A DNA stretch of 64,000 nucleotides from Acidihalobacter sp. GTDB lineage: Bacteria; Pseudomonadota; Gammaproteobacteria; DSM-5130; Acidihalobacteraceae. Every line of letters begins with the position of its first letter. Positions within the stretch are counted from its first letter, which is position 1. The DNA is taken from assembly GCA_027013225.1 (NCBI GenBank), contig JALUXU010000063.1:62001-126000 (forward strand). The letters run 5' to 3'. A program made the translations under genes and the position numbers. The notes beneath the pieces were generated by a model that saw only the letters and a program-made list of their open reading frames with translations, was not told the origin of the DNA and ran no database searches. Positions 10,917 through 21,069 of this stretch are shown piece by piece.

Positions 10917-13571
10917 ATGAAAGAAGCATCGCCTCGCGCCATTTATTTAAAGGATTATCGTCCGCCAGATTTCATGATCGAACGCACCGAGTTACGCTTT
11001 CACCTCGATGATGAGGCGACCTTGGTTGAAAGCCGCCTGCAGGTAAAGCGCAATCTAGCCGCTGGGTCGCCGGATGCTACGCTGGTACTGAACGGAGAGG
11101 ATCTTGAGCTTGTGGCGGTAAGGCTGGATGGGCGTGAGCTTCCGCCGCCCGAATGGCGCCGCGACGAGCAGGCACTGAGCATAGCGCGGGTGCCGGATGT
11201 TTTTACGCTAGAAATCGTCACGCGCATCAAGCCACAGGAAAACACTCGCCTTGAAGGGCTTTACCAATCGGCAGGTAATTTTTGCACCCAGTGTGAGGCC
11301 GAGGGTTTCCGCCGCATTACTTACTATCTTGATCGCCCGGATGTCATGAGTGTGTTCACTACCACCTTGATCGCCGATGCCGAGCGTTATCCCGTGCTCC
11401 TCTCCAATGGCAATGTGATTGAGCGGCGCACGCTGGAAGGTGGTCTTCACTGCGTCACCTGGCATGACCCTTTCCCCAAGCCAAGTTACTTGTTTGCCCT
11501 GGTGGCGGGGAAGTTGACCTGCCTGGAAGACAGCTATACCACGATGTCGGGGCGTGAGGTGACACTACAAATCTATGTTGAAGCGCACAATGCCGACAAA
11601 TGCGAGCATGCGATGGCATCGCTCAAGAAGGCTATGCGCTGGGACGAGCACCGCTTTGGCCTGGAATATGATCTCGATACCTACATGATCGTCGCTGTGG
11701 ACGATTTCAACATGGGCGCAATGGAGAACAAGGGGTTGAACATCTTTAATTCCAAACTTCTGCTGGCCCGTCCACAGACCGCTACTGATGGCGATTACGA
11801 ACGCATCGAGAGCGTCGTCGCGCATGAGTATTTCCATAACTGGACAGGCAACCGCGTCACTTGCCGTGATTGGTTTCAGCTTTCCTTGAAAGAAGGCCTG
11901 ACTGTATTCCGCGATCAGAGTTTCACCGCTGAAGAAACGTTGGGAGTAGTCAAGCGCATAGACGACGTGCGTCTTTTGCGCAGTTTGCAGTTTCCGGAAG
12001 ATGCGGGGCCTATGGCGCATCCTGTTCGTCCTTCTTCATACATCGAGATCAACAATTTTTATACTCACACGGTGTATGAAAAGGGCGCCGAAGTGGTGCG
12101 CATGTATGAAACCCTGCTCGGGCGCGAGGGGTTCCGCCGCGGCATGGATCTGTATTTTCAGCGCCACGACGGTCAGGCGGTCAGCACTGAGGATTTTCTT
12201 GCTGCCATGGCCGATGCCACTGGCGAGGATTTGAGCCAGTTTCAGCGTTGGTACGAGCAAGCCGGCACTCCCCGTGTTCAGGTCGAGGACCAATGGGATC
12301 AAGCATCCGGGCGCTACACTTTGATCCTGCGGCAAAGTTGTCCTCCGACGCCGGATCAGCCAGAAAAGCCCCCTTTCTTGATTCCTTTTGCCGTAGGTTT
12401 GATTGATGCTGAAGGTCATGATTTGCCTTTGCCCGGGGCGGCTGATAGCGAGGCGGCCGATTTCACGCGCGTGCTGCGCCTCACTGAGTCCGAGCAACGT
12501 TTCACCTTCGAAAATCTGCCTGGCAAGCCTCTGCCATCCCTGAATAGAGGCTTTTCCGCCCCGGTCATCGTCCAGTTTTCCTACAGCGATGCCGACCTCG
12601 CCTTCCTTGCGGCGCACGATAGCGATCCTTTCAATCGCTGGGACGCCGGCCAGCAATTGGGCGCGCGCGTTTTGCTGCGGCTGATCGATGACCAACGTGC
12701 GGGTGCGGCGCGCGTGCTTCCTGAAATCTATAGTCAAGCGATTGCCGCCGTGCTTGAAGCCGAGTCTCTGGAGTCGGCCGTGAAGGCGGAAATATTGACT
12801 CTGCCCGAAGAAAACTGGCTGGCCGAACAAATGGAAGTAATCGATCCCGTGGCGATCCATGAGGCTCGGGAATATATCAGGCGTTCGCTCGCTGCCCGTC
12901 TGGAGAGGCAATGGCTTAACGCCTATCACGCCAACGAAGTGCCCGGCGCGTATCGTTTCGAACCCCGTGATGCTGGACGCCGGTGCCTTCGCAACCTGGC
13001 GCTCTCTTATCTGATTACTCTGGACAAGGGTGAAATTTGTCGTTTGGCCTTGGAGCAGTTCGAGAAGGCCGACAACATGACAGACAGCCTAGGCGCTTTG
13101 GCGGCGCTGATGCACGCCTCCGGCGAGGAAAAAACGCAGGCACTCAATAGGTTCTATCTACAATGGAGGCATGATCCGCTGGTGCTTGATAAGTGGTTTG
13201 CGCTGCAGGCGATGGCACCGGGCGAGGATGCGCTGGAACGGGTGCGCTCGCTGATGCGGTTGCCCGAGTTTTCCTTGCGCAATCCAAACCGCGTACGCGC
13301 TCTTATTGGTGCCTTTGTACAAGGCAATGCGGCGGCTTTTCATGCCGTTGACGGCGCAGGCTATCGTTTTTTGGGCGAACAGCTGAGTACCCTGGATGCC
13401 ATCAATCCGCAAATTGCCGCGCGGCTCGCGACTGCTTTTACCCGCTGGCGTCGTTTCGACGAGGTTCGCCAGGCACATATGAAAACCGAATTGGATGTCT
13501 TGATGGCGCAAAAACTTTCACCCGATCTGTATGAGATCGTCAGCAAAAGCTTGAAAGATGAGTCTGCATGA
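10917..13571 (+). CDS. pepN: Aminopeptidase N (M1 zinc peptidase)
   Basis: Cytosolic broad-specificity aminopeptidase that finishes degradation of peptides. The 884-residue protein begins like E. coli PepN (AIYLKDYRPPDF), has the exopeptidase motif GAMENKGLNIFN, and the zinc site HEYFHNWTGNRVTCRDWFQL followed by LKEGLT, giving the two histidines and the downstream glutamate ligand. The C-terminal half matches the DUF3458-type helical domains of the proteobacterial group. Start chosen at the ATG at 10917; an in-frame alternative 18 codons upstream gives an atypical N terminus. Transcribed away from tatD and followed by hemN after 33 bp. Confidence 0.96.
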   Translation: MKEASPRAIYLKDYRPPDFMIERTELRFHLDDEATLVESRLQVKRNLAAGSPDATLVLNGEDLELVAVRLDGRELPPPEWRRDEQALSIARVPDVFTLEIVTRIKPQENTRLEGLYQSAGNFCTQCEAEGFRRITYYLDRPDVMSVFTTTLIADAERYPVLLSNGNVIERRTLEGGLHCVTWHDPFPKPSYLFALVAGKLTCLEDSYTTMSGREVTLQIYVEAHNADKCEHAMASLKKAMRWDEHRFGLEYDLDTYMIVAVDDFNMGAMENKGLNIFNSKLLLARPQTATDGDYERIESVVAHEYFHNWTGNRVTCRDWFQLSLKEGLTVFRDQSFTAEETLGVVKRIDDVRLLRSLQFPEDAGPMAHPVRPSSYIEINNFYTHTVYEKGAEVVRMYETLLGREGFRRGMDLYFQRHDGQAVSTEDFLAAMADATGEDLSQFQRWYEQAGTPRVQVEDQWDQASGRYTLILRQSCPPTPDQPEKPPFLIPFAVGLIDAEGHDLPLPGAADSEAADFTRVLRLTESEQRFTFENLPGKPLPSLNRGFSAPVIVQFSYSDADLAFLAAHDSDPFNRWDAGQQLGARVLLRLIDDQRAGAARVLPEIYSQAIAAVLEAESLESAVKAEILTLPEENWLAEQMEVIDPVAIHEAREYIRRSLAARLERQWLNAYHANEVPGAYRFEPRDAGRRCLRNLALSYLITLDKGEICRLALEQFEKADNMTDSLGALAALMHASGEEKTQALNRFYLQWRHDPLVLDKWFALQAMAPGEDALERVRSLMRLPEFSLRNPNRVRALIGAFVQGNAAAFHAVDGAGYRFLGEQLSTLDAINPQIAARLATAFTRWRRFDEVRQAHMKTELDVLMAQKLSPDLYEIVSKSLKDESA

Positions 13572-15070: not shown

Positions 15071-16525
15071 TCAAAGCGTTCTTGTTGCATGATGCTCTGA
15101 TGTTGTGCCTGGTGCCTCGACAGGCCCCATGGTGCTCGCTTTTTCGTGGCCTTCCCTTTGACTCGATTCTGGAGTAGAGGCCATAAGGGTTTCTATTACT
15201 GTCTTTAATTCCTCCAACGCGCCCTTATCCCCTTGTGCTTGGATGATGGCAGCCTTGATTTGAGCCATAGAAAGGAGCGGGCTGTGATCGAATTGTCGTG
15301 AGAATGCGTTGATCACCTGCTGTACCAGAAGCGACATGCGTTGCTTGTCGCCGTGTGACTCGGACATGATGAGTGCGATGTTGGATTCAATATCATGCAA
15401 TGGGCGTTGTTCACGGCGTACATAGAGCGTTTCCAAGGTCTGCACCAAGTTGCGCAGCGTTTCTTTTGGGTAGTCATTGAGTTCGAGGTACTGGTATAGA
15501 GTTCTGTTCAGCTGGAAAGGCAGGTCTTCAAATCGCGTGATAAAGACATCGATCAATTCTTCCAGGGCCGAGGCGATATTCTTTTGCTCGCTTTTTGCGG
15601 TGGTTTCCAGCGCTTTCGCCGCGTGGGTCAATAAGCTAGCCACTTGTGCCGCATCCAGCTTCGTGAGGTCGATTTGGGCATTGGATGGTTGCAGCGCATG
15701 TGGTGTGTTTTTCGTAGAAATGGCGCCATTTACGGCTTTAGAAAGTCCGCCGGCGTCATGAATCCCGGTTTGACTCTGGACTAAGCGATCGAGTTGCTTA
15801 GCTATTTCGTAGAAACATAAACTGGCCGGTGCGTCGTGGCGAAGGTAGATCACCGGCCGTTGCAGGCGGACGGCTGAAGCTACCGTGGCATCATTTAATA
15901 CATAGCCAAGCGCCTCGACCTTCAGGTGCAAGTATTTCTCTACAGCCGCTTGAAATCGACGAAATAGGGCGCGAAATTCCTGAATATTAGCCGCTTGGTT
16001 AACCACCACGCGCACGGGTACCTTGATTTCAGATCTCAACATAACGCGCAACAAGGCAAAACTGTTGGTAAGCGAGGTCGGTTCCGGGGTGATGACGACA
16101 ACGATCATCGCCGCGGCTTTGAGGAAAAAGAGCACGTCCCGTCCAACACCTGCGGCGGTGTCGATTAGTAAATAGTCGTGAGTATATTCAAGCGTGGCGA
16201 GGGCATCGCTCAGCCGCTTTCGACGAACTTCATCCAGAGTCTCCCCGTCGACAATTCCAGATGCCGCCGGTATGACGGAAAAGCCGCCGGGTGCCTTGAG
16301 CAGAATATTTTCTACTTGGTGTTGGCCATTGAACACATGCTCAAGCGTCAACTCGGGATGCAGGCCAAGCAGTATGTTGGCATTGGCCTGATTGGTGTCG
16401 GCATCGAACAGACACACCCGCCGCGGCAGGTTGGAGAGGGCGACGGCAAGATTGACACTGATATTGGTTTTTCCAACCCCGCCTTTGCCACTGGTAACGG
16501 CAATGATTGTAGCTTTTTTCCTCAT
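15071..16525 (-). CDS. FlhG/FleN/YlxH-like MinD-family ATPase with long C-terminal extension
   Basis: Residues 1 to about 260 form a deviant-Walker P-loop ATPase: VTSGKGGVGKTNISVNLAVA, CLFDADTNQANANILLGL, VIPAASGIVDG and LLIDTAAGVGRD, closest to FlhG/FleN proteins that control flagellar number and position. The last roughly 220 residues are a helical extension rich in Gln, Leu and Glu that I cannot assign. Start at the ATG at 16525; a TTG two codons earlier is possible. No flagellar gene is in the window. The protein is encoded last in a minus-strand run after a histidine kinase and a c-di-GMP regulator, so a role in locating or gating signalling or motility is an inference. Confidence 0.82.
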   Translation of the reverse strand: MRKKATIIAVTSGKGGVGKTNISVNLAVALSNLPRRVCLFDADTNQANANILLGLHPELTLEHVFNGQHQVENILLKAPGGFSVIPAASGIVDGETLDEVRRKRLSDALATLEYTHDYLLIDTAAGVGRDVLFFLKAAAMIVVVITPEPTSLTNSFALLRVMLRSEIKVPVRVVVNQAANIQEFRALFRRFQAAVEKYLHLKVEALGYVLNDATVASAVRLQRPVIYLRHDAPASLCFYEIAKQLDRLVQSQTGIHDAGGLSKAVNGAISTKNTPHALQPSNAQIDLTKLDAAQVASLLTHAAKALETTAKSEQKNIASALEELIDVFITRFEDLPFQLNRTLYQYLELNDYPKETLRNLVQTLETLYVRREQRPLHDIESNIALIMSESHGDKQRMSLLVQQVINAFSRQFDHSPLLSMAQIKAAIIQAQGDKGALEELKTVIETLMASTPESSQREGHEKASTMGPVEAPGTTSEHHATRTL

Positions 16526-16713
16526 AACCAAAGCCCTATTTGCCGCTTAGGAAAGCTTCGAGATTGTTATGGTAAAGGATTGATGATTGCTGCGCTCTCG
16601 GCCGGCATCCACTTCTGGTTCATCTTGACCTTGCAGTCTAGTCGCTGTTTCCGACATGCTTGGAGGCAAGCCGATCATTGCTTCGTTTTTTCCATGACAA
16701 GGCCCCTATTTGG
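16511..16713 (-). repeat. Imperfect direct repeat of the start region flanking a degenerate 170-bp spacer
   Basis: Reading the minus strand, CAAATAGGGGCCTTGTCATG (from about 16712) and CAAATAGGGCTTTGGTTATG (from about 16542) are near-copies, each continuing into an A-rich stretch. The first copy spans the stop of the GGDEF-EAL gene and opens a six-codon reading frame (MEKTKQ); the second gives the true start of the FlhG-like gene. The spacer also holds a 36-codon ATG frame (16547-16657) and, in another frame, a protein-like tail ending NNLEAFLSGK just before the second copy. It may be a decayed gene or a small duplication. Confidence 0.4.
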
Positions 16714-18862
16714 ATAGTATCGGCGTTTGTTCAGGGCTGTCATTCCGGGTCAATGCAAGCAATTTCCCCGCCTCTTCGGCCGGCAGCGGAGCGCTGAACA
16801 GGTTTCCTTGCATGACGCGGCAGTTGCGTTGCAGTAGCCAGTCTCGTTGCGCTTGGGTTTCCACACCTTCGGCTACCAGTTTGAGGTCAAGGCTTTGTCC
16901 CATGGCGATGATCGCGTCAATCACGGTCCGTTCTTTGCGTTCGGGGTGGATGTCGAACACGAAGGAGCGATCGATCTTCAGTGTCTTGATGGGCAATTGG
17001 TGCAAGTAGCCCAAGGAAGAATAACCGGTGCCGAAATCGTCGATGGCAATATCGATGCCATGATGGGCGAGCGAGCTCAAGCGCTGAGCGACACTGTCGA
17101 TGTCTTTGACGATCACATTTTCGGTGATCTCTACGGCAAACCGCTCGGGGGGAACCTTTTGTTCTCGCAAAGGATGCAGGATTTGTTCGACGATGTCGGA
17201 GTGTTTGAGGTCCAGCGCAGAGAAATTGATAGCCAGATGCGGGGGAGCGATGCCGGCTTCGAGCCATTGATGGATTTGTTTGGCAGCGGCACGAATCAAC
17301 CAGCGCGTGATTTGGGTAATCAGACCAATTTCTTCGGCCAAGGGAATAAAGGCACCCGGAAGCACGAGTCCAAGTTCTGGATGCCGCCATCTCAATAGGG
17401 CTTCCATGCCGATAATCCTTTGATTATACAAGTCGAATTGAGGTTGGTAGTAGATGCAAAATTCATCTTCTGTAAGTGCGCGGCGCAAACGCATTTCAAA
17501 TTCGAGATGTTCTGAGAAATTGGCATCCATGGACTTGACATAGAAGGCGAAATTTCCTTTGCCATCATGCTTGACGCTATACATGGCGACGTCGGCGTTC
17601 TTGATTAGTTCTTCTTCTTCGTCAGCATCGTCTGGATAGACCGAGATGCCAATGCTGGCAGAAATGAGGAGTTCGCGTTCATCTAGAATGAATGGTTGTT
17701 CGAGGGCATCTAGGATCTTGCGAGCCACTTGGGCGGCATCTTGAGGGTGTTTGATTTTGCTTAGCAAGACCACGAATTCATCTCCACCAAGCCGGGCAAG
17801 CGTATCTTCGGCGCGCAAACACCGCTGCATACTGCGGGCCGCGGCGCGCAGCAATTGATCACCTACTTTGTGGCCGAGGGTGTCATTTACGATCTTGAAT
17901 CTATCCAGATCAATGAACATGATCGCGGTCTTGTATTCATTGCGATTGGCTTGAGCCAGAGACATTTTGAGTCGATCCTTGAACAAGGCGCGGTTGGGTA
18001 GGCCCGTCAATAAGTCATGATATGCCTGGTAATGAATAACTGCCTCTGCACGTTTTTTCTCGGAAACATCACGAGCCACGCCATAAGTACCGAGTCGGTG
18101 TCGATCATTTTCTTTCCCGGTGTATAAGCCTGTGGCGTAAAGTTCAATATTTAATATGCGGTGGGAAAAACTTTTTTTAATATTTTCTAGTCCCTTTGTG
18201 CATAAGCGCAACTCAAAGTTTCGAGTTGCGCGCTCACCTGTTCGGCGTTCGTTGAAGGCATATTTTGCGTCCTCGCGGTCTTGGTCGCAGACAATGGTGG
18301 TGTAGTGCTTGCCTAGCAGTTCCTTGGGCGCATGGCCAAGCAAGTCCTGTACACGTTTATTCACGAAGACGAAATTGCCTTTTTGATCCAGAATATAGAT
18401 GAAATCCGGTGAGGTATTGACGAGGAAACGATAGAGTTTTTCTGAATGTTCGAGCCGGTTCTTGATCTCTAGGTTGTGCTTGCGCAGTCTTCGATGCGCC
18501 AACGTATTTTCTAGTCGTTTGAGCAATTGATTGGGCACATACGGCTTGGTCAGAAAATCATGCGCCCCAAGGCGCATGGCATCCACGGCACTATTGAATG
18601 AGCTTTCCCCGCTGATAACGATCACGTCTGTGGGTATTTGCTTGTCGGCCACGAATTGCATGATCTGTCGACCATCGACATGAGGCATCTTCATATCGAG
18701 CAGGAGGATATCGAATCGGCCTGTTTGTAATTGTTGTATGGCTTTCCGACTGTCGTCTACTATGCTGACCTCATACCCTTCAAGCGACAGGAGTTCGCGC
18801 AGGCTTTCGAGTAGACGCGGGTCATCGTCTACGGCGAGAATTCGGGCTTTTTCATCTGCCAT
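16706..18862 (-). CDS. Response regulator with PAS, GGDEF and EAL domains
   Basis: Bifunctional-type c-di-GMP enzyme of 718 residues. A receiver domain (1-125) has VDDD, the phospho-acceptor Asp56 and Lys106. A PAS domain follows (about 140-270, FIYILDQKGNFVFVNKRVQD). The GGDEF domain has an intact LGGDEFVVLL active site, and the EAL domain has EALLRWRHP, the DDFGTGYSSL loop and the KIDRSFV segment, so both synthesis and hydrolysis look chemically possible. Start chosen at the ATG giving MADEKARILAVDDD; a TTG at 18952 overlapping the kinase stop would add 30 residues. Directly downstream of the HDOD histidine kinase, its probable partner. Confidence 0.9.
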   Translation of the reverse strand: MADEKARILAVDDDPRLLESLRELLSLEGYEVSIVDDSRKAIQQLQTGRFDILLLDMKMPHVDGRQIMQFVADKQIPTDVIVISGESSFNSAVDAMRLGAHDFLTKPYVPNQLLKRLENTLAHRRLRKHNLEIKNRLEHSEKLYRFLVNTSPDFIYILDQKGNFVFVNKRVQDLLGHAPKELLGKHYTTIVCDQDREDAKYAFNERRTGERATRNFELRLCTKGLENIKKSFSHRILNIELYATGLYTGKENDRHRLGTYGVARDVSEKKRAEAVIHYQAYHDLLTGLPNRALFKDRLKMSLAQANRNEYKTAIMFIDLDRFKIVNDTLGHKVGDQLLRAAARSMQRCLRAEDTLARLGGDEFVVLLSKIKHPQDAAQVARKILDALEQPFILDERELLISASIGISVYPDDADEEEELIKNADVAMYSVKHDGKGNFAFYVKSMDANFSEHLEFEMRLRRALTEDEFCIYYQPQFDLYNQRIIGMEALLRWRHPELGLVLPGAFIPLAEEIGLITQITRWLIRAAAKQIHQWLEAGIAPPHLAINFSALDLKHSDIVEQILHPLREQKVPPERFAVEITENVIVKDIDSVAQRLSSLAHHGIDIAIDDFGTGYSSLGYLHQLPIKTLKIDRSFVFDIHPERKERTVIDAIIAMGQSLDLKLVAEGVETQAQRDWLLQRNCRVMQGNLFSAPLPAEEAGKLLALTRNDSPEQTPILSK

Positions 18863-18948
18863 ATGGTTTACCGTCTGCCTGCATTGCCGCTCTCCTGGAG
18901 ACAAGATGCATTGGTATTTTCGTGAATTGCCATCAATATTCAGCTTTT

Positions 18949-21069
18949 TCAAGCTTCAGCAAGCTGCCTTGGAAAGAGTAACTGAAAGCGGGTTCCAGAA
19001 GAAGAACTCTGGCAGGTTATTCGTCCACCAAGAGTATCCACAAGTTGTTTGGTGATTGCCAGGCCAAGGCCGGAATGCCCCTTGCCCTTGGTGCTGGCGA
19101 CCGGTTTGAATAATTGGGCGAGGATTTGCGGGGGGATCCCCGGGCCAGTGTCGCGGATTTCTATACCCACATAAGCTTGTTTATCACTATAGATCCCATC
19201 AGTGCTGCCAACGGTGATGGCTTGTCCTGGATTGAGCGCTTCGGCTGCATTTTTGAGCAAGTTGACCAGGATTTGTTTAATGCTGTTGCGCGGCAGATCC
19301 AGTTCAGGGAGGGCGGGATCAAGGTCAAGTTCTATCTGAATGCCTCTGGGTTTCAACAATGTGGGCTGAATGAGCCTGACCACGTCTTTTATCAATCCAT
19401 TTAAATCGAGAGCACTCGGCTGCGATTCGTCTGCGGCATCTGATAGCGTCCGAAGTATCGCTCCCACGCGGGAAATCTCCTCGCGCATGATGTTTATGTC
19501 CCGGTTCAATTCCTGGCTTCCCGAAGACGCATGTTTCTCTAGAATGCTTAGATAGTTTTGAATGATACTCAAGGGGTTTTTTGCTTCATGCGCAATACGT
19601 TGAGCCCGCATGAGGAATTCTTCGCTCTGGGCGTGCAATGCCGCATCCTGCTGCTGGGCGCGTTGGCGATGGGCGGCGAGCGCGGCCCCGATTTCACGTA
19701 CGAATAGCATCAACAGCCTGTGTTTGGCTTCCAGACAGATCGAGTCTTCTTGATCCAAGCCAATCAGCATTGCCCCCTGAATTTCACCCGCGGCCATCAA
19801 AGGGGTTGCCAGCAAACCTTCATGTTGAAACAAGGTCAGAATTTCCCTGTCGACTACGGCGAGTGAGGTATCCTCTTTATGATTTTGCTTCCAAGGATAG
19901 TATTTATGCACCTCGCCACTGGCCAATGTTTTTCCCACCAAGCTGAAATGATCGGGAAGCCTGAAGGTGAATTCTGACCAGATTGGATCAGGATCACCTG
20001 GAGTTAGAATTTTTGCGATTGATATATCGGATTGGAGCAATGCAAACCCGACGGATTTAAGACCAAATAGCAGATCACATGCAAAGCGCGCGGCGCCGCA
20101 CAACTCGTTTATGTTTTCGGTATCATTCAATTGCCAGCGAACGCTGGAGAGTAGATGCATTTCGCCTAATTTTTTGGCCAGGGGCGAGGACTCGAATGAT
20201 TTCGGCGTTCCGGTGCCGTTTTCTCTGCCAAAGGCCAGGGCGGTTTGTTCGGCCCTGCGAATGCAAGATTCATATTCTTCTTCCAGAAGACTGGGTAATA
20301 TCCCCAACAGTCGTTCGGCATCGATCCATTGCTTTGCGTCGGCTTCATGGTTTGCATCGGCCAGATGATTGGCGACGGCCACGATGCGTACAAGGTGATG
20401 CGCATTCATCAACGCATCCTCGTGGGCATGGTGAAAATGTACAGCATCGACCAAAGGGCCCGTGCGCCCCACACGTAGGAGTAGACCTGCTCCCAATTCC
20501 GCGTGATCGATGCCAAAGAGCTCGATTTCCTTGGAAGGCAAAGGCTTGTTCAACTCATGCGTTTTTTCGATCAGCGTTGCGTAGTGTTTTGGAGAGAGTT
20601 TGAGCAGGGCGACCTGGCCTAGATTGCTGATCAACCCAGCCAGATAGGCTTCGTGTTTGTGAGGATAGCCACTCAAGCTGGCCAGTCGTTCGGCGAGTTC
20701 AGCGGTCAATAGGGATGTACGCCATAATCGACCCAAAAGCGATTCCTGACCGGTGATGGAGTCTTGTTCAATGAATTGATGAATGGCGGCGGAGAGGGCG
20801 AATGTGCGGATAGTGTTGAGTCCCAGCCTGAGAGTGCTTTGTTCCAGGGTCAATGATCGCTGCTGATGATGGCCTGCAAAGACTGGACTCGCAGAGAGGC
20901 TCAAAACACGTGTAGCTAGAACAGATTCCTGCCGGATCAGCCCGGCAATATCTGATAGAGAGGTGTCTGGAGCTTCGCAGGCGTCGAGCAAATTGAATAC
21001 GATTTGCGGTAAGGCAGGCAGCGACGTTATGTCGATGGCTTTGACTAGATGTTTGTGGGCTGGATTCAT
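18949..21069 (-). CDS. HDOD-GAF hybrid histidine kinase
   Basis: A 706-residue sensor. Residues about 10-220 form an HDOD domain (LPALPQIVFNLLDACEAPDT, later GLISNLGQVALLKL). The middle (about 320-470) resembles a GAF domain (FACDLLFGLKSVGFALLQ). The C terminus is a HisKA with His494 in RIAHEAKNPLSIIQ, and an HATPase with NLLKNAAEAL, DTGPGIP and SGLGLAI. There are no transmembrane helices, so it is a cytosolic sensor. The stop adjoins an in-frame TTG of the next gene, which encodes a receiver-bearing GGDEF-EAL protein, arguing for one operon and a kinase-regulator pair. Divergent from the purine transporter operon. Confidence 0.88.
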   Translation of the reverse strand: MNPAHKHLVKAIDITSLPALPQIVFNLLDACEAPDTSLSDIAGLIRQESVLATRVLSLSASPVFAGHHQQRSLTLEQSTLRLGLNTIRTFALSAAIHQFIEQDSITGQESLLGRLWRTSLLTAELAERLASLSGYPHKHEAYLAGLISNLGQVALLKLSPKHYATLIEKTHELNKPLPSKEIELFGIDHAELGAGLLLRVGRTGPLVDAVHFHHAHEDALMNAHHLVRIVAVANHLADANHEADAKQWIDAERLLGILPSLLEEEYESCIRRAEQTALAFGRENGTGTPKSFESSPLAKKLGEMHLLSSVRWQLNDTENINELCGAARFACDLLFGLKSVGFALLQSDISIAKILTPGDPDPIWSEFTFRLPDHFSLVGKTLASGEVHKYYPWKQNHKEDTSLAVVDREILTLFQHEGLLATPLMAAGEIQGAMLIGLDQEDSICLEAKHRLLMLFVREIGAALAAHRQRAQQQDAALHAQSEEFLMRAQRIAHEAKNPLSIIQNYLSILEKHASSGSQELNRDINIMREEISRVGAILRTLSDAADESQPSALDLNGLIKDVVRLIQPTLLKPRGIQIELDLDPALPELDLPRNSIKQILVNLLKNAAEALNPGQAITVGSTDGIYSDKQAYVGIEIRDTGPGIPPQILAQLFKPVASTKGKGHSGLGLAITKQLVDTLGGRITCQSSSSGTRFQLLFPRQLAEA

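Follow-up and report, generated by a model that had tools for sequence, protein, structure and literature searches.

A conserved gene trio of an HDOD histidine kinase, a GGDEF-EAL response regulator and a sister of the flagellar ATPase FlhG in Gammaproteobacteria

Why is an ATPase that resembles FlhG, the flagellar number ATPase, encoded beside a histidine kinase and a c-di-GMP regulator, and is it FlhG at all? The question arises from three genes on the minus strand of a 64,000-nucleotide stretch of Acidihalobacter sp. DNA (the window, which is the whole stretch that was analysed). All three open reading frames reported by the first-pass annotation were found. The first (18949–21069, 706 aa) encodes a soluble histidine kinase with the order HDOD, GAF-like, HisKA and HATPase_c, and the second (16706–18862, 718 aa) a REC-PAS-GGDEF-EAL response regulator, both assigned by Pfam and alignment. 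The regulator frame (16706–18952) is open from a TTG at 18952, giving 748 aa, and the likely start is the ATG at 18862, just 5′ of the receiver domain. The third gene (15071–16525, 484 aa) encodes a ParA/MinD-type ATPase that we place as a sister of FlhG; its frame spans 15071–16531 and the ATG at 16525 is the likely start. There is a gap of about 180 nt 5′ of the ATPase gene (16526–16705, minus strand), compared with 2–18 nt in the sister genomes in which it could be read. Given the length of this gap, the window ATPase gene may have a separate promoter; a promoter and terminator scan of the locus found promoter-like sites no more frequently than expected by chance.

Pfam identifies HDOD, HisKA and HATPase_c in the kinase, and a hydropathy scan of the kinase and the regulator gave no peak typical of a membrane helix. 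The HDOD input and the soluble character claimed for the kinase are borne out by these results, but the GAF domain claimed with them is weakly supported: GAF models scored poorly in the few kinase orthologues (of 7 examined) that they matched, and fell below threshold in the window kinase. The phospho-acceptor is His494 (HEAKNPL), and the H, N and G boxes are conserved in the alignment of all 16 kinases examined. The regulator matches Response_reg, PAS, GGDEF and EAL in Pfam. It retains an intact receiver Asp, GGDEF, RxxD I-site and set of EAL catalytic residues, in agreement with the earlier suggestion that its sites for both c-di-GMP synthesis and hydrolysis are apparently intact. The active-site motifs are intact in 16 of the 18 regulators examined, the exceptions being G252, which has a degenerate EAL, and G352, in which the called ORF begins after the receiver Asp. 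The features of a two-component system are present (a kinase with H, N and G boxes and a paired receiver with its phospho-accepting Asp), and those of a bifunctional enzyme (GGDEF, I-site and EAL catalytic residues) are found in the window regulator and in most orthologues. In all loci in which the kinase and regulator genes could both be read, they lie next to each other and in the same direction. This strict pairing and the intact sites suggest that phosphotransfer takes place between kinase and regulator.

We searched 369 genomes drawn from the class Gammaproteobacteria for the kinase, with E up to 1e-60, and for the ATPase with its C-terminal extension (the tailed ATPase), with E up to about 1e-10. 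The kinase was present in 18 genomes, the tailed ATPase in 17 and both in 11 (Fisher p about 1e-12, with the genomes treated as independent although they are related; they represent several families). Where both were present the genes were adjacent in 11/11. The three architectures are therefore conserved together far beyond this genome, and we reject the possibility that the trio is unique to it; since the adjacency recurs in several other families, the objection that the genes might be neighbours here only, which the first-pass annotation had raised against its own proposal, is removed. The linkage of the trio is well supported.

The ATPase is intact in 9 of the 11 genomes that have both genes, because G253 is without the ATPase core and the gene in G038 is interrupted. 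In G253 only the extension is present, encoded next to the kinase gene by an ORF of 176 aa (L127:4427-4957). In G038 near-identical stretches of about 240 bases lie in opposite orientation inside the ATPase and kinase genes (L076:9589-9831 and 11850-12091); the copy in the ATPase gene breaks the reading frame, and the one in the kinase gene lies in its middle and leaves the frame unbroken.

The arrangement of the genes varies with family. In the window's family (f1) the kinase, regulator and ATPase genes are co-directional in all five genomes, with the ATPase gene last. A genome of the same genus (G001) has the flanks seen in the window, aminopeptidase N and an ABC transporter. The flanking genes differ from those of the window in G002–G004 of the same family while the trio persists, so the three genes are retained together as one unit. 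In other families the ATPase gene is divergent from the kinase-regulator pair (G018, G038, G052, G141, G226 and G348) or one gene away from it (G221). Kinase and ATPase distances are still correlated after FlhF distances have been taken out (partial r 0.72 over 10 genomes).

These data bear on the simplest alternative, that the pair is an ordinary c-di-GMP two-component system, to which the ATPase is unrelated, and that the three genes travel together by chance without cooperating. Each part does occur without the other: the pair is present without the ATPase in G157, G252, G352 and G267, which suggests that the pair can work alone, and there are six genomes with a tailed ATPase and no pair. 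However, adjacency in 11/11 genomes of several families, despite changed gene order and flanks, makes chance neighbourhood very unlikely. An alignment search with the tail found one named relative, a Thiotrichales MAG; a single-sequence scan of named genomes gave no match, and no kinase homologue was found in a plasmid collection.

The ATPase matches ParA/AAA_31/CbiA in Pfam and its deviant Walker A motif (SGKGGVGKT) is intact. The nearest solved relatives in a PDB profile search are FleN (5j1j, 1e-73) and FlhG (4rz2, 3e-60), and the ATPase shares with the FlhG/FleN/YlxH group a MinD-like core and an occurrence in polar flagellates. To this extent the earlier label, FlhG-like ATPase, was apt. 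In a tree of the ATPase core, however, the window-type proteins form a clade of 20 rows (support 96/88) and FlhG a separate clade of 33 rows (95/95). The tree reports two label changes between window-type and FlhG because a single G012 gene was entered twice, as L031 and L078, under both labels. FlhG carries an N-terminal enhancer helix with the motif DQAxxLR, which acts on FlhF (PMC12826062). The motif is present in 0/17 window-type proteins, including that of the window, compared with 15 (strict) or 21 (loose) of 33 FlhG proteins.

The same genome has a run of flhB-flhA-flhF-flhG-fliA-mot-parA on another contig (C6), and the window ATPase, which lies outside this flhF-fliA operon, was rejected as the FlhG of the genome since the operon has its own. 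There are two flagellin genes in this 2.27 Mb genome, so the remark that no flagellar gene is near holds locally but does not extend to the absence of a flagellar link. The genome also encodes its own MinD, ParA and Mrp. The separate clade, the presence of flhF-flhG elsewhere and the lack of the DQAxxLR helix together show that the window ATPase belongs to a sister clade of FlhG and is not FlhG itself. In the genome's own FlhG (L006:5273-6163) the motif is degenerate (NQAMSRQ), and even a loose match is missing from about a third of the FlhG proteins sampled. A further ParA-type ATPase (L006:1158-2814) lies next to a CheW-like gene and mot-type genes, like the ParC/PpfA ATPases of chemotaxis arrays.

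The window ATPase differs from FlhG additionally in its long C-terminal extension (about residues 253–484; 15071–15770, minus strand), which belongs to no known family. There are 67–320 residues beyond the core in window-type proteins, compared with about 16–26 in FlhG. An amphipathic stretch follows the core of the window ATPase (moment about 0.5), similar to that of the genome's own FlhG, and the extension then follows. Searches of the extension against Pfam and PDB gave sub-threshold or core-end matches only, none of which was accepted. The extension is predicted to be helical: in an AlphaFold model made from two sequences, in which the core is readable, it is all-helical at low confidence (pLDDT about 50).

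The first-pass annotation had proposed comparing genomes with and without flagella. Flagellin is present in 200/369 genomes overall and in 16/17 tail-positive genomes (p 6e-4), and intact tailed ATPases were found in flagellates only (15/15 in flagellin-bearing genomes). The sole tail-positive genome without flagellin is the single-contig G038, which has the broken ATPase gene. The association is weak for the kinase (flagellin in 14/18 kinase-positive genomes, p 0.05). Among the genomes tested FlhF is present in exactly those that are flagellin-positive, suggesting that the module tracks polar (FlhF-bearing) flagellates. In G352 (L134) the kinase-regulator pair is divergent to a run of fliL-fliM-fliN-fliO-fliP-fliR-flhB-flhA, these genes being named by eye and not by profile.

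The link to flagellates, and the fact that FleN and FlhG are the nearest solved relatives, could also be read as pointing to a role in activity or transcription and not in position. FleQ, an activator that binds c-di-GMP, has FleN as its antiactivator, and by this model the window ATPase would sense ATP and restrain a partner, which would be the GGDEF-EAL protein or an activator of the FleQ type, with c-di-GMP as part of the switch. We consider this unlikely, though well above chance neighbourhood. The extension is unique to the window-type clade and absent from FleN, and there is no conserved activator gene beside the module in the loci examined.

The reading that we prefer, with confidence that is moderate and no higher, is that the trio is a conserved module in which a two-component c-di-GMP system has a spatial ATPase of its own, which probably places or gates it at the pole. 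The soluble HDOD kinase would phosphorylate the receiver of its partner regulator, which would both make (GGDEF) and degrade (EAL) c-di-GMP, with phosphorylation setting the balance. The ATPase would most likely bind the kinase and/or the regulator through its C-terminal extension, and would place or gate them at the pole, the site at which type IV pili and the polar flagellum are built. Placement or gating at a polar site is suggested by the class of the ATPase and by its adjacency to the pair. Genes of the ParA/MinD type are often encoded near those of their cargo (PMC10241942), and here the conserved neighbours are the kinase and the regulator, which are thus the candidate cargo.

The trio resembles several known systems in part. 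With the cargo-dedicated ParA/MinD ATPases, such as ParC/PpfA and McdA, it would share the principle that each cargo has an ATPase of its own, whose gene lies next to those for the cargo. In Halothiobacillus neapolitanus the cargoes of such ATPases are the chromosome, divisome, carboxysome, flagellum and chemotaxis cluster, with conjugation and nitrogen-metabolism loci left unstudied there; in contrast with the candidate cargo here, there is no c-di-GMP system among them (PMC10241942). PdeB of Shewanella putrefaciens is a GGDEF-EAL protein that is placed at the flagellated pole by HubP, and affects MSHA pili and adhesion (PMC9061725). The window regulator is likewise a GGDEF-EAL protein, polar placement being a feature of PdeB. 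However, the GGDEF of PdeB is inactive (PMC9061725), whereas the window regulator is a REC-PAS-GGDEF-EAL protein with intact motifs, and the gene linked to it encodes an ATPase and not the landmark HubP. Among HDOD proteins, SadB and PSPTO_4229 of Pseudomonas influence swimming (PMC8262913, PMC11813219). These are described as HDOD-containing only and not as kinases, in contrast with the window protein, in which HDOD is the input of a histidine kinase.

More tentatively, and with rather less confidence than in the module itself, the ATPase could represent a new class of ParA/MinD-type positioning ATPase, a sister group of FlhG with a helical extension at the C terminus, that has as its cargo a c-di-GMP enzyme controlled by phosphorylation. 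One pole would then receive its own c-di-GMP switch alongside the ordinary FlhF-FlhG system. No description of the trio was found in the literature, and as this covers open-access papers only it is weak evidence of novelty. The presence of the trio in unrelated bacteria points to an undescribed unit that may link c-di-GMP signalling with the cell pole. Such a unit bears on two questions: how c-di-GMP signals are restricted to a single pole, and how a cell with several ParA/MinD ATPases keeps them apart. Both could be approached directly through a dedicated FlhG-sister ATPase that is conserved next to a c-di-GMP two-component system. It is also a warning that 'FlhG' or 'MinD' is the wrong annotation for such ATPase genes.

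Finally, the cargo may be pili instead of flagella, because PilT is also present in all module genomes. The PilT family was found in 24/24 module or tail genomes, including non-flagellates, compared with 309/369 overall (p 0.02). A type IV pilus, or both polar machines, would then be the cargo; the assembly of pili would be what the ATPase and the c-di-GMP module time or place, and the link with flagella would be indirect, by way of a polar lifestyle. The company kept by tailed ATPases without the kinase is in keeping with this, and also with the preferred reading. In G059 (L136:470-10628) such an ATPase lies beside HDOD, GGDEF-EAL, HEAT-Ser/Thr kinase, PilT/PilU-type ATPase and FHA genes, and in G075 one adjoins a T2SSE ATPase bearing MshEN. 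On the other hand, PilT is very common in the class, the intact ATPase is confined to flagellates and the kinase-bearing loci have no pilus gene close to the trio, and we regard a pilus cargo as improbable, about as much so as the FleN-like role.

In G103 (L137:917-5502) a tailed ATPase without the kinase is found beside HDOD and GGDEF-EAL genes. G059 and G103 represent a second, different association of the ATPase clade with c-di-GMP genes, and polar surface machines and c-di-GMP are the recurring theme of what the ATPase and the module go with. A further ATPase gene (L164:5828-11659, JANTGN010000072.1) is followed on the same strand by genes for a coiled-coil protein, an OmpA-like protein, a Rab-like small GTPase and an HD-GYP-like protein.
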